Source of the DNA: Methanofollis ethanolicus
GTDB taxonomy: Archaea; Halobacteriota; Methanomicrobia; Methanomicrobiales; Methanofollaceae
Reading direction: 5' to 3'
NCBI RefSeq assembly: GCF_001571385.1
Contig: NZ_BCNW01000001.1
Span: forward strand, 868,001 to 932,000
DNA: 64,000 nt
In this document: positions 50,645 through 58,067 of the stretch, piece after piece
Layout of the letters: each line of letters begins with the position of its first letter
How positions within the stretch are numbered: position 1 is the first letter of the stretch
The notes under the pieces: model-generated
Databases searched by the model: none
The model's input: the letters and a program-made list of their open reading frames with translations, nothing else
Told to the model about the DNA's origin: nothing
Translations under genes and position numbers: made by a program

Positions 50645-51442
50645 TCATTCCTCTTGAAGATAGCGGGGCGGCAGGTCGGGCCTGAAGTCCGCGACCTCCA
50701 GACAGGCGGGGGCGCCGGGTGCGGGCGGCGGCGCCGTCAGGGTGACGCCCTCAGGCCCCGCGGCGCCGACGATACCGGCGGTGAGGACCCAGCCGTCGGC
50801 GTCGAGGAGGGCGGCGAAGTGGCCGGGGGTCGGGGCGTGGCCGATGCGGCGCACCTCGTTGCCGACGACGATCTCCCCCGCATCCTCCATGTGGCGGGCG
50901 AACCGTTCGGCACGGTACCGCCGCCTCTCCCCCTGCGACCGCCGCCGCACCGCGGGCGCCGGGGGGATGCGGTGGACCTGCACGGCCGGGAAAGGTGCGA
51001 GGATGCGGCCGATCTCCGCCTGCCTGCCGATGGCGACGATCTGGTCGGGCCTGAGGACCTCGATCGTCCGCCTCTGGAACTCCACGCCCCCGTCGCCCCA
51101 GATGTACCCGCAGGAGTCGACGAGGACGACTTCCGGGCCTTCGGCGACGGCGGCGTCGAGGAGGCGCCTGATGCCGGAGAGGGTCGCGAGGAGGGCGTGC
51201 GAGGGGGAGAACGCCCCGGTGAACCGCAGGCGGACCCTCCCGTCCGGGTGAGAGAGGCCGAGGGTGCCGGGCGGGCCGAGGACCGACTGTCCAGGGTCGC
51301 CATCGATGTAGGCGACGCCCCCTCTCTGTGCGGCGATCCAGCGGGCGAGGGTCGTCTTGCCGCAGTCGCTCGCGCCGAGGAGGAAGACGGTCCCCTCGAG
51401 GTCCTGCACGACTCTATCCCAGCGCGGTTCAGGGACGATCAT
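50645..51442 (-). CDS. Clp1/Nol9-like polynucleotide kinase
   Basis: A 265-residue P-loop protein related to Clp1/Grc3/Nol9 5'-OH polynucleotide kinases. Walker A reads GASDCGKTT (about 23-31), and YIDGDPGQSVLGPPGTLGL supplies the catalytic Asp and the loop typical of the family, with VVLVDSCGYIWGDGG as Walker B. A C-terminal beta domain follows. ATG 51442 is chosen because the upstream extension is not conserved-looking. Archaeal members phosphorylate RNA or DNA 5' ends in RNA repair or tRNA processing. It precedes the ABC genes by 19 nt. Confidence 0.85.
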   Translation of the reverse strand: MIVPEPRWDRVVQDLEGTVFLLGASDCGKTTLARWIAAQRGGVAYIDGDPGQSVLGPPGTLGLSHPDGRVRLRFTGAFSPSHALLATLSGIRRLLDAAVAEGPEVVLVDSCGYIWGDGGVEFQRRTIEVLRPDQIVAIGRQAEIGRILAPFPAVQVHRIPPAPAVRRRSQGERRRYRAERFARHMEDAGEIVVGNEVRRIGHAPTPGHFAALLDADGWVLTAGIVGAAGPEGVTLTAPPPAPGAPACLEVADFRPDLPPRYLQEE

Positions 51443-51513
51443 CTGATGCCATCGGCATGGGCTATCTTCAAATATACCTCTATCCCCAGTAGGGCCCGAA
51501 GAGGGGAGGAAAC

Positions 51514-51936
51514 ATGACACTGATGGAGTGCTGCCAGGTGCCGGTCGTGAGCGTCCCGCCGGAGACGCCGGTCTTCGACGTCGCCGCGATCATGGCCGAG
51601 CAGAATGTGGGGAGCGTCGTCGTCGTGGAGAAGAAGAAGCCCGTCGGGATCGTCACCGACCGGGACATCACCGTGCGGGTCACGGCGCAGGCGCTGGACC
51701 CGAAACAGATCCCGGCACGGACGGTGATGACCGCAGACCTCCTTGTGCTGCCCGGGACGACCGGCCTCTATGAGGCGCTGGAAGCGATCCGGAAGAAGGG
51801 GGTGAGGCGAGTCCCTGTCGTGGACGAGCACGGCGCCCTCACCGGGATCATCACGGTCGACGACATCATCCGCCTCCTTGCGGCCGAGATGGAGGGCATC
51901 TCCGCCGTCATCCGCGCGGGGACGCCGGTGATCTGA
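51514..51936 (+). CDS. CBS-domain pair protein
   Basis: A 140-residue protein with two CBS domains: VVSVPPETPVFDVAAIMAEQ with GIVTDRDITVR, and VMTADLLVLPGTTGLYEALE with RRVPVVDEHGALTGIITVDDI. Such pairs bind adenine nucleotides or SAM and act as energy sensors or regulators. No fused enzyme. It has AGGGGAGGAAAC before the ATG, a strong ribosome-binding site, and is divergent from the Clp1-like gene. Confidence 0.95.
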   Translation: MTLMECCQVPVVSVPPETPVFDVAAIMAEQNVGSVVVVEKKKPVGIVTDRDITVRVTAQALDPKQIPARTVMTADLLVLPGTTGLYEALEAIRKKGVRRVPVVDEHGALTGIITVDDIIRLLAAEMEGISAVIRAGTPVI

Positions 51937-53513: not shown

Positions 53514-53933
53514 ATGTCTGACGAGGGTGGGCTTGATATCTATACGGACGGGGCGGCGCGGGGCAACCCCGGTCATGCCGCCTATGCCTACCTCCTCGTC
53601 GCGGACGGCGCCGTCGTCCTCGAAGGCTCGGCCTATGCCGGTGTCACGACGAACAACACCGCCGAGTACCTCGCCATCATCCACGCCCTCGAAGCGGCGT
53701 CCGCGAGGACGGACGGCGACCTGTCCGTCCATTCGGACAGCGAACTCGTGGTCAGGCAGATGACCGGCGAATACAGGGTGAACAAGGAGCACCTCAGGGA
53801 CCTGAAGGCCCGCGTGCTCGCCCTGGTCGGCAGGTTCAGGTCGGTCCGTTTCGTCTCCGTCCGCCGGACCAACCCTTTTATCGCGCAGGCCGACCGCCTC
53901 TGCAACGAAGAACTCGACCGGAGGGGAGCCTGA
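53514..53933 (+). CDS. rnhA: Ribonuclease HI
   Basis: A 139-residue RNase HI. The four acidic residues are D12 (IYTDGAARGNPG), E51 (NNTAEYLAIIHAL), D75 (VHSDSELVV) and D127 (AQADRLCNE). It is short, without the basic protrusion of E. coli RNase HI, as in many archaeal types. It cuts RNA in RNA-DNA hybrids. GGGAGAG precedes the ATG. First gene of a four-gene unit with the two Cas4-like genes and TrmO. Confidence 0.95.
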   Translation: MSDEGGLDIYTDGAARGNPGHAAYAYLLVADGAVVLEGSAYAGVTTNNTAEYLAIIHALEAASARTDGDLSVHSDSELVVRQMTGEYRVNKEHLRDLKARVLALVGRFRSVRFVSVRRTNPFIAQADRLCNEELDRRGA

Positions 53934-53956
53934 CGGGCGACAGGGACGCCCCGCAG

Positions 53957-54193
53957 GTGATCTCCGCGGCCGAGATCGCCGAGTTCACGTACTGTGCTCT
54001 CTCCTGGCAGTTCGGCCGGAACGGCCGGAACACCACCTCCGCGTCGAGCGAGCGGGGGATGCAGAAACACGCCGAGGTCGGAAAAAAACTCTTTGCCGTT
54101 GAAAAAGCGCGGCGGGAGTTCTGGCTCCTGACCATCCTCGGCTATGCCCTGCTCGCCCTCGCCCTGATCATCCTCCTCAGGTGGTTGCAGTGA
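53957..54193 (+). CDS. Cas4-like split protein, N-terminal part with TM anchor
   Basis: A 78-residue protein. Its first 45 residues match the N-terminus of Cas4-family nucleases: ISAAEIAEFTYCALSWQF carries C13, the single N-terminal Cys of the [4Fe-4S] site, and SERGMQKHAEVG carries H38, the motif-I His. After about 20 more residues it ends in a membrane helix (FWLLTILGYALLALALIILLRWL). It has no nuclease core of its own. GTG 53957 is the assumed start; the frame is open further up. The next gene overlaps it in GTGA. Confidence 0.75.
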   Translation: MISAAEIAEFTYCALSWQFGRNGRNTTSASSERGMQKHAEVGKKLFAVEKARREFWLLTILGYALLALALIILLRWLQ

Positions 54194-54741
54194 ACATCTA
54201 TCTGGGCGAGGTTTTGATCCTCCTCCTCCTCGGTGCGCTTGCGTTCTTCATCTTCGCGATCAGGAGGCACTACTCCGTTCAGCCAATGAGAGATAAATTC
54301 GGGATCCCCGAGGGCGAACTCCTGTACACCGACCTCGACAAGGAAACCGGGACCTTCTTCTCGGAGACCCACCGGATCTCGGGGAGGCCGGACTATGTGC
54401 TGCGGGACGAGATGACCGGCGCCTATGTCCCGGTCGAGGTGAAGAGCGGGCGGGCGAGAAAGCCGTACTGGAACCACATCCTTCAGCTCGCCGCGTACTG
54501 CCTCCTTGTCGAGGAGCACTACGGCGTGCGCGTGCCGTACGGCATCCTGGTCTATGGCGAGGGGAAACAGCACAGGATCGAGTTCACCGACGACCTGAGA
54601 GAGCAGGTGCTCTCGACCGTGGCCGAGATGCGGCGGTGCCTGGACGGCGCCCAGGTCAGGCGGAACCACAATGCCCCGGGGCGGTGCCGGGGGTGCGGCC
54701 ACCGGGAGGTCTGCCTCCTCGCGCTGGAGGAGGAGGAATGA
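54190..54741 (+). CDS. Cas4-like split protein, nuclease part with TM anchor
   Basis: A 183-residue protein. An N-terminal membrane helix (VLILLLLGALAFFIFAI) leads to the PD-(D/E)xK core: D68 in SGRPDYVL, E83 and K85 in VEVKSGRARKPY, and Q99/Y103 in HILQLAAY. Three Cys at the end (C166, C169 and C175) complete a Cas4-like [4Fe-4S] site that otherwise needs one N-terminal Cys; that Cys is in the preceding protein. The start is GTG 54190 in a GTGA overlap with AGGTGG upstream. It would act as a 5'-3' DNA exonuclease or processing nuclease at the membrane. Confidence 0.82.
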   Translation: MNIYLGEVLILLLLGALAFFIFAIRRHYSVQPMRDKFGIPEGELLYTDLDKETGTFFSETHRISGRPDYVLRDEMTGAYVPVEVKSGRARKPYWNHILQLAAYCLLVEEHYGVRVPYGILVYGEGKQHRIEFTDDLREQVLSTVAEMRRCLDGAQVRRNHNAPGRCRGCGHREVCLLALEEEE

Positions 54742-55151
54742 TGGACCTCGTGCCCATCGGGGTGATCAGATCGCCGTACACAACGCCCGGCGACGCCCCG
54801 CGGCAGGGGCGTCTCTCCGATGTGGTGAGCGAGATCGAGGTCTTCCCCGCGTACGCCCCGGCCCTTTCCGATATCGGGAAACACCGTCACCTGATCGTGC
54901 TGTACTGGCTCGACCGCGCCGACAGGTCGGCCCTGACGGCGACGCCGCCGGGGACGGAGCGGGAACTCGGCGTCTTCTCGACCCGGTCGCCGAATAGGCC
55001 AAACCCCATCGCCCTCTGTCTCGTCGACCTCGTCGCGGTCGAGGGCCTGACCCTCAGGGTCCGCGGCCTGGACGCCCTCGACGGCAGTCTGCTCCTGGAC
55101 ATCAAACCCTATTCTCCCGCAATCGACACCGTCTCCGGGGAGGCGGTCTGA
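54738..55151 (+). CDS. trmO: tRNA methyltransferase TrmO (TsaA family)
   Basis: A 137-residue single-domain TrmO. It has DLVPIGVIRSPYTTPGDAPRQG at the start, then HLIVLYWLDRAD and GVFSTRSPNRPNPIALCLVDL, the conserved region of the SAM-binding beta barrel. TrmO N6-methylates t6A37 in tRNA(Thr). The start is in an ATGA overlap with the Cas4-like gene. Last gene of the RNase HI unit and convergent with the aldehyde oxidoreductase gene. Confidence 0.92.
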   Translation: MMDLVPIGVIRSPYTTPGDAPRQGRLSDVVSEIEVFPAYAPALSDIGKHRHLIVLYWLDRADRSALTATPPGTERELGVFSTRSPNRPNPIALCLVDLVAVEGLTLRVRGLDALDGSLLLDIKPYSPAIDTVSGEAV

Positions 55152-57188: not shown

Positions 57189-58067
57189 ATGGCAGATAAA
57201 GAAGTTCAGCAGGAAAACTGCTCAGGCAACTGCTCCTCATGCCCGAGCGCCCAGAAGGAAGGGTGCGATTCCCCGCAGAAGGGCCTCCCTCCCAAGGCGA
57301 AGATCGACGTCAAGCACGTGATCCTGGTCCTCTCAGGCAAGGGCGGCGTCGGCAAGACGACCGTCTCCGTCAACCTCGCCTCCGCCCTCGCCAACCACGG
57401 CAAGACTGTCGGCCTCCTCGACCTCGACATCCACGGCCCGAATGTGCCGAAGATGGTCGGCGCCGAGGGGCAGCACCTGAATGTCATGGGCAACAAGATC
57501 GAGCCTGTCCAGATCACCGGCAACCTCTCTGTCGTCTCGATGGAGTTCCTCCTCCCTGACGCCGAGACCCCGGTCATCTGGCGCGGGCCCATGAAGATGT
57601 CCGTGATCCAGCAGTTCCTGGAAGACGTGAACTGGGGCGCCCTCGACTACCTGGTCGTCGACCTCCCGCCCGGGACCGGCGACGAGGCCCTCTCCATTAT
57701 CCAGCTCGCCCCCAATGTCGACGGCGCCGTCATCGTCACCACCCCGCAGGAGGTCTCGACGATGGACTCGAAGAAGGCGGTGAAGTTCGTCGAGAAGCTC
57801 GAACTCCCGGTACTCGGCATCATCGAGAACATGAGCGGGCTCATCTGTCCCGACTGCGGGAAGGAGATCGACATCTTCGGCAAGGGCGGCGGCAAGAAAG
57901 CTGCCGAAGAGCTCGGTGTCCCCTTCCTCGGCGCCATCCCCATCGACATCGAGATGCGGAAGGCCGGCGACGAAGGCAGGCCCTTCATCAACAGGCACGC
58001 CGATTCCCCCTCCTGGAAGGCAATCGACGCCGTGATGGAGAACCTGGTGAAGGTCGTTGAGGGGTAA
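57189..58067 (+). CDS. Mrp/NBP35-type iron-sulfur cluster carrier ATPase
   Basis: A 292-residue P-loop ATPase for [4Fe-4S] assembly. The N-terminus holds four Cys (C11, C15, C18, C26), as in NBP35/Nubp1. The deviant Walker A LSGKGGVGKTT (about 51-61) and DLDIHGPNVPKM are those of the Mrp/MinD group. CPDC (C220 and C223) is the bridging cluster site. ATG 57189 has GGGAGATAATC in front. It is followed directly by a 102-residue gene (stop and ATG adjacent), so that protein probably works with it. Confidence 0.95.
   Translation: MADKEVQQENCSGNCSSCPSAQKEGCDSPQKGLPPKAKIDVKHVILVLSGKGGVGKTTVSVNLASALANHGKTVGLLDLDIHGPNVPKMVGAEGQHLNVMGNKIEPVQITGNLSVVSMEFLLPDAETPVIWRGPMKMSVIQQFLEDVNWGALDYLVVDLPPGTGDEALSIIQLAPNVDGAVIVTTPQEVSTMDSKKAVKFVEKLELPVLGIIENMSGLICPDCGKEIDIFGKGGGKKAAEELGVPFLGAIPIDIEMRKAGDEGRPFINRHADSPSWKAIDAVMENLVKVVEG

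Follow-up and report, generated by a model that had tools for sequence, protein, structure and literature searches.

A membrane-tethered Cas4-like nuclease probably made as two translationally coupled chains in Methanofollis and other archaea

Cas4 is customarily regarded as one soluble enzyme, and characterised archaeal Cas4 proteins have 5'-3' exonuclease activity (PMC12538437). The text of a phylogenomic survey of Cas4 (PMC5704561) mentions neither split nor membrane-anchored forms; because short fragments were discarded in that survey, halves of Cas4 may have been dropped from it. No description of a split or membrane Cas4 was found in the open-access literature that we searched, most subscription papers being outside that search. 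We analysed a 64,000-nucleotide stretch of a methanogen genome (the window, G000:C1:868001-932000), together with its relatives in the genus Methanofollis, other archaea, and bacterial plasmids. We consider it highly probable that the window encodes a solo-Cas4 nuclease that is tethered to the membrane and produced as two coupled chains, the assembly of the chains, the interchain cluster, and the activity being inferred. The original prediction, made from the sequence of the window alone, proved largely right and understated.

The two nuclease genes lie on the plus strand in a coupled operon, the first gene of which (53514..53933, stop codon TGA at 53931) encodes an RNase HI of 139 residues (Pfam RVT_3, 5.5e-14; RNase_H, 4.4e-12). 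It is joined by CTGA to gene 1, gene 1 by GTGA to gene 2, and gene 2 by ATGA to a TrmO-like tRNA methyltransferase gene (54738..55151, plus strand; Pfam TrmO_N, 2.6e-33). Gene 1 as called (53957..54193, plus strand) has a GTG start and encodes 78 residues forming an N-terminal Cas4-like part with its C-terminus predicted outside; its product carries C13 (the first Fe-S cysteine) and H38 (the motif histidine) and ends, immediately before the stop codon, in a hydrophobic helix, ...FWLLTILGYALLALALIILLRWLQ. The coding sequence of this helix, TM1, extends approximately from 54120 to 54190 on the plus strand, as judged from hydropathy and positive-inside counts. Gene 2 (54190..54741, plus strand) also has a GTG start and encodes 183 residues, beginning with a hydrophobic helix, TM2 (approximate limits 54196..54264, plus strand), which is followed by an Arg/His-rich inner flank, RRHYSVQPMRDK, and then by the C-terminal Cas4-like part with the motifs PD(Y), E-V-K, Q-L-A-A-Y, and C-x2-C-x5-C. 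Both proteins had been predicted with exactly this arrangement of helices and motif residues, which the sequence bears out. At the coupling junction (54179..54193, plus strand), the two genes share four nucleotides in a start-stop overlap (GTGA, 54190-54193), and an SD-like AGGTGG (54179-54184) lies in the last codons of gene 1; the predicted coupling is supported by these features and by overlaps in nearly all of the related pairs.

The called GTG is probably not the true start of gene 1. A CTG at 53930, directly 3' of GGAGGGG, overlaps the RNase HI stop codon as CTGA and would add nine residues (53930..53956, plus strand) before the GTG. This CTG and the upstream GGAGG are kept in four species, the window's own clade, and other relatives have an ATG nearby; we infer that the non-standard CTG is the real start. 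Elsewhere in the window, a gene for a NUBPL/NBP35-type Fe-S cluster carrier ATPase (57189-58067) lies 2.4 kb downstream of the nuclease genes, and a carrier ATPase of this type is also found near the pair at one other locus (L011). A CLP1-type P-loop (polynucleotide kinase-like) gene is located upstream of the operon on the minus strand (50645-51517).

Comparison with family models placed the pair in the Cas4 family. The gene 2 product alone matched Pfam Cas_Cas4 (8.2e-14) and NCBIfam TIGR00372, the latter with 80.7 bits over model positions 65-179, above the curated cut-off of 65 bits. When both window proteins were joined without the hairpin, the score rose to 82.5 bits and the match covered positions 7-179 of 180, nearly the full model, which supports the Cas4 relative that had been proposed; the N part adds less than 2 bits. 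The gene 1 product alone matched no Pfam or NCBIfam model. In PADLOC, the gene 2 product and a fused relative were similar mainly to Cas4, Cas4-containing Cas1, and DruK, with no similarity for the gene 1 product. In a fused relative, Pfam PDDEXK_1 matched residues 11-267 over model positions 2-246 of 247. The PD-(D/E)XK catalytic residues of the Cas4 family are present in the window pair, with the histidine on one chain and the rest on the other.

When the RNase HI - Cas4-like - TrmO arrangement was examined in the genus, it was found in all 12 Methanofollis genomes studied; in eight of these the Cas4-like gene is split between the two helices, and in four species it is a single open frame of 274-278 residues that keeps both helices as an internal hairpin. 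A four-nucleotide NTGA overlap joins the genes in seven of the eight split members. In the eighth (G002, a one-contig genome), GCG replaces the GTG start, with gene 1 four codons longer. A scan with a profile of the composite, confined to other families of the window's phylum apart from one locus from a Thermoplasmatota MAG, yielded 26 further archaeal loci, of which 25 are split. The complete archaeal loci thus total 38, of which 33 are split; the 5 fused ones are those of the four Methanofollis species and one from a distant archaeon (L110, family f28). The split lies between the two helices in every split locus, a recurrence beyond chance, and the gene 2 start falls inside or adjoins the gene 1 stop in nearly all archaeal pairs. 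Matches outside the genus from the first search (L013-L030) were excluded from the group, being either soluble Cas4 or distant Cas4-like proteins that lack a membrane helix. Almost all of the soluble Cas4 genes met in the same archaeal searches consist of one open frame, and the split therefore goes with the membrane helices.

The existence of four congeneric species with one continuous chain raised the question of whether a recent indel, or the assembly, had simply interrupted a single-chain gene, leaving a frame error or a decaying pseudogene. The original prediction would have failed had most relatives carried a single chain, and the survey of fused and split versions gave the opposite result: the same place is split in two thirds of the genus and in all but one of the loci outside it, with start-stop overlaps in nearly all of them. 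An assembly error is not the cause, since the split is found in genomes of one to three contigs (G000, G002, G004, and G129). In close split species of the genus, G002 included, dN/dS was 0.04-0.17 in both halves, and both are under purifying selection. With the motif residues also kept throughout, the conserved split refutes a broken gene, a reading to which we assign practically no weight. A tree of the archaeal loci required two changes between the split and fused states, some of its deep branches being weak and long. If it is rooted among the split lineages, the split would be the older state and fusion would have arisen twice.

All ten motif residues are kept in the 38 archaeal loci: C22, H50, D160, E175, K177, Q191, Y195, C258, C261, and C267 in the numbering of a fused relative. 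Their division is equally constant, the first cysteine and the histidine lying in the first part, and the aspartate, E-x-K, Q-x3-Y, and the other three cysteines in the second, so that in split loci the four Fe-S cysteines of the Cas4 family are distributed 1 and 3 between the chains. The predicted division of the cluster site and the active-site residues between two halves thus holds as a motif layout across the whole set. It is conceivable that the Cas4 motifs are retained in a membrane anchor that binds DNA or senses redox state and is no nuclease; a cluster site spanning two chains might act as a redox switch, and a virus protein that derives from Cas4 and has been inactivated is on record (TTV1, cited in PMC5704561). 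However, a non-catalytic derivative would not be expected to keep H, D, E, K, and Q invariant in all 38 loci, and we regard such an anchor as improbable.

The fold was examined in an AlphaFold model of a fused relative (L061), which was computed from a nine-row alignment and is not a two-chain prediction. In the model (pTM 0.71, mean pLDDT 75), helices 41-89 and 97-130 form a hairpin that sits on a core resembling Cas4, Dna2, and AdnAB, with the Fe-S regions (22-39 and 250-277) at pLDDT below 50. A Foldseek search of the model against the PDB returned 16 matches at E<=0.001, all of them Cas4, ACE1, AdnAB, Dna2, or MGME1, with Cas4 at the top. The TM-scores were low (0.28-0.40 by query length) because the long hairpin is missing from the targets. 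Among solved Cas4 structures, 8d3l was matched by sequence (1.3e-7), and 4r5q aligned weakly in two pieces, one spanning the N-terminal Cys/His stretch and one the core, which flank the hairpin. The natural fused chains with an internal hairpin are evidence of the Rosetta-stone type that the two halves belong together. They and the model fit the earlier idea that the two helices pair as a hairpin, the two-chain assembly itself remaining an inference.

The distribution of charged residues around the helices revealed a strong positive-inside signal. Summed over the split pairs, there are 120 lysines and arginines in the 15 residues before TM1 and 6 after it, and 2 before TM2 and 122 in the 15 residues after it. 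This orients protein 1 with its N-terminus inside and its C-terminus outside and protein 2 the opposite way, with both catalytic parts in the cytoplasm.

Bacterial relatives were sought with gene 2 among plasmids; bacterial chromosomes were hardly covered, and the genome collection was scanned with peptides conserved in the archaeal genus. Each plasmid match to gene 2 follows a small gene of the gene 1 kind. The pairs encode 91 and 169 residues on the planctomycete plasmid Paludisphaera borealis PALBO2, with a four-nucleotide overlap, 88 and 169 residues on Singulisphaera pSINAC03, also planctomycete, and 81 and 162 residues on Bacillus subtilis plasmids, where the separate chains match TIGR00372 model positions 1-44 and 61-179. 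Variant pairs occur on plasmids of Aeromonas, Microbulbifer, Vibrio, Burkholderia, and Pseudomonas. In this proteobacterial variant, the N part is fused to a CFI-box-like domain and lacks a clear helix, the helix of gene 2 is kept, and the tyrosine of Q-x3-Y is lost; the CFI-box model (NF041770) was confirmed for the Aeromonas first gene. The joining of CFI-box-CTERM to the Cas4 N part was observed at plasmid loci L124, L126, and L128, where the domain may replace the membrane helix; no paper on this domain (NF041770) was found. On a small, hand-picked set of eight plasmid pairs, the archaeal N profile scored 22-43 bits on seven first genes, that of Burkholderia failing, and the archaeal C profile 35-91 bits on all eight second genes. 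Relatives of the Aeromonas first gene were present in 41 plasmid records, 19 typed as conjugative and 13 as mobilizable, with the caveat that some may match through the CFI-box only. A phage origin was ruled out on empty searches: neither the window C-chain nor the Aeromonas C-chain had a match among 50,697 phage records, and viral contigs, scanned twice, yielded no relative. E. coli genomes contained no DNA matching the Aeromonas pair.

The plasmid pairs also bear on how the second chain is translated. Programmed ribosomal frameshifting at the junction would make the mature enzyme of every species one chain with the hairpin inside it, a possibility to which the fused versions, the usual placement of gene 2 in the -1 frame, and the two split loci without the usual gene 2 start at the junction (G002, with GCG, and L064, with ATA) lend some support. 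However, inspection by eye revealed no common slippery sequence at the junctions, and gene 2 of one genus (g58) uses the other frame (offset -5). In the B. subtilis plasmid pair, the gene 1 stop codon lies within an SD-like GAGGTGA just upstream of the ATG of gene 2, which thus appears to be separately started, arguing against frameshifting; the NTGA overlaps and SD-like sequences elsewhere fit coupled re-initiation. We therefore hold frameshifting to be unlikely, and two coupled chains remain our preferred reading. At L006 / L114 (G002) and at L064:6261, gene 2 has no ATG, GTG, or TTG start, and its mode of translation is unexplained.

We propose a mechanism that builds on features established by computation, namely the fold family, the split, the helices, their topology, motif conservation, and selection. 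Protein 1, with a single helix, its N-terminus in, and its C-terminus out, would contribute the N-terminal part, which holds the first cluster cysteine and the motif-I histidine. Protein 2, with one helix in the reverse orientation (N-out, C-in), would contribute the PD-(D/E)XK core, Q-x3-Y, and the other three cysteines. TM1 and TM2 may pair in the membrane like the hairpin kept by fused relatives, and this pairing would unite both cytoplasmic parts into one Cas4 fold. The metal site would then combine the histidine of chain 1 with the aspartate, glutamate, and lysine of chain 2, and the Fe-S cluster would probably be held 1+3 across the chains; either chain alone is predicted to be inactive. 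Given the activity of characterised archaeal Cas4 proteins (PMC12538437), the assembled pair may be expected to act at the inner face of the membrane as a metal-dependent exonuclease on DNA ends, working 5'-3' on single strands.

With respect to context, the original prediction had stated that no CRISPR genes are present. This holds for the locus, where RNase HI and TrmO are the neighbours and no cas1, cas2, or other cas genes adjoin, and a CRISPR association of the locus was rejected on that basis; it does not hold for the genome, in which cas1 is present elsewhere. Cas1 was found in 30 of the 31 genomes with the pair, and a distant CRISPR link is thus not excluded. Clustering of the neighbours of the archaeal loci revealed no conserved third partner, only gene 1 itself recurring across many families. 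The company of the pair is DNA-related and unfixed, and its cellular role is left open because the neighbouring genes are not conserved between families. Several f22 archaea (L092-L099 and L118) have, on reading of the loci, genes of the staphylococcal-nuclease (thermonuclease) type downstream of the pair, apparently exported; Pfam SNase genes also lie near the pair on B. subtilis plasmids (L122:4173-4721 and L129:7394-7942). In L106 (family f9), an integrase-like gene recognised by reading lies 82-982 bases downstream of gene 2 and suggests a mobile region.

Membrane anchoring and the plasmid distribution incline us, tentatively, towards a role in which DNA arriving at the membrane, by entry or by transfer, is processed or destroyed; this role is unproven. 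About equally plausible, and likewise short of an even chance in our assessment, is a role of the same two-chain nuclease in DNA repair or replication at the membrane and not on incoming DNA. RNase HI is coupled upstream throughout the genus, the end of gene 2 is overlapped by a gene for a Hef/FANCM-like helicase in L105 (family f26), and a helicase gene lies upstream of the pair on Bacillus plasmids. Set against repair, these neighbours are not common to different families, and the pair is carried on mobile plasmids, several times near transfer genes. The broadest reading is an ancient two-subunit class of membrane nuclease, shared by archaea and bacterial plasmids, in which neither the Fe-S cluster nor the active site is present except at the interchain joint, and in which assembly, or loss of the cluster, would switch DNA destruction on or off at the site of DNA entry; we consider it doubtful as a whole.

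In genome annotation, gene 2 is named Cas4, Dna2/Cas4, or PD-(D/E)XK, and gene 1 is 'hypothetical' or 'CFI-box'. If both chains form one enzyme, the annotated Cas4-domain proteins are half-enzymes that would seem inactive or clusterless when assayed alone, and two different membrane proteins would, unusually, share a single catalytic site and a single Fe-S cluster (1+3). The natural fused versions are built-in controls. Conjugative plasmids would then also encode a membrane-located nuclease, so that the DNA-entry role can be tested directly, for example with the B. subtilis plasmid pairs.

Compared with known systems, the two-chain form meets both the curated and the motif definitions of Cas4 and looks like an overlooked and ancient form of it. 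The window pair departs from known members in not being a single soluble chain, which is usual for Cas4 but lies outside the motif and curated-model definition. With Cas4 and solo-Cas4 (TIGR00372, PF01930, COG1468; SSO0001, Pcal_0546, and the type I-C protein 8d3l) it shares the same ten motif residues and a matching fold, and like solo-Cas4 it lies outside CRISPR loci; described Cas4 proteins are single chains, whereas the window encodes two polypeptides with one membrane helix each. The nuclease domains of PDDEXK_1 (PF12705)/AddB, AdnAB, and Dna2 belong to the same PD-(D/E)XK fold class, in agreement with the Foldseek matches to AdnAB and Dna2, and AddB and Dna2 share the 1+3 cysteine layout. 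These, however, are domains of large helicase-nucleases, and no helicase domain was matched by Pfam in the window proteins (78 and 183 residues); we know of no AddB, AdnAB, or Dna2 nuclease domain that is split internally or membrane-anchored. The Argonaute-associated ACE1 (9iab, 9iac; Foldseek E 1.4e-5) is likewise a Cas4-family protein outside CRISPR, but it was solved as a single chain linked to Argonaute, and no Argonaute adjoins the window pair. The plasmid pairs of CFI-box-CTERM and PD-(D/E)XK proteins (NF041770) have the same overlapping order, the N part followed by helix and core, and differ in carrying the CFI-box domain instead of a clear N-part helix and in lacking the tyrosine of Q-x3-Y.
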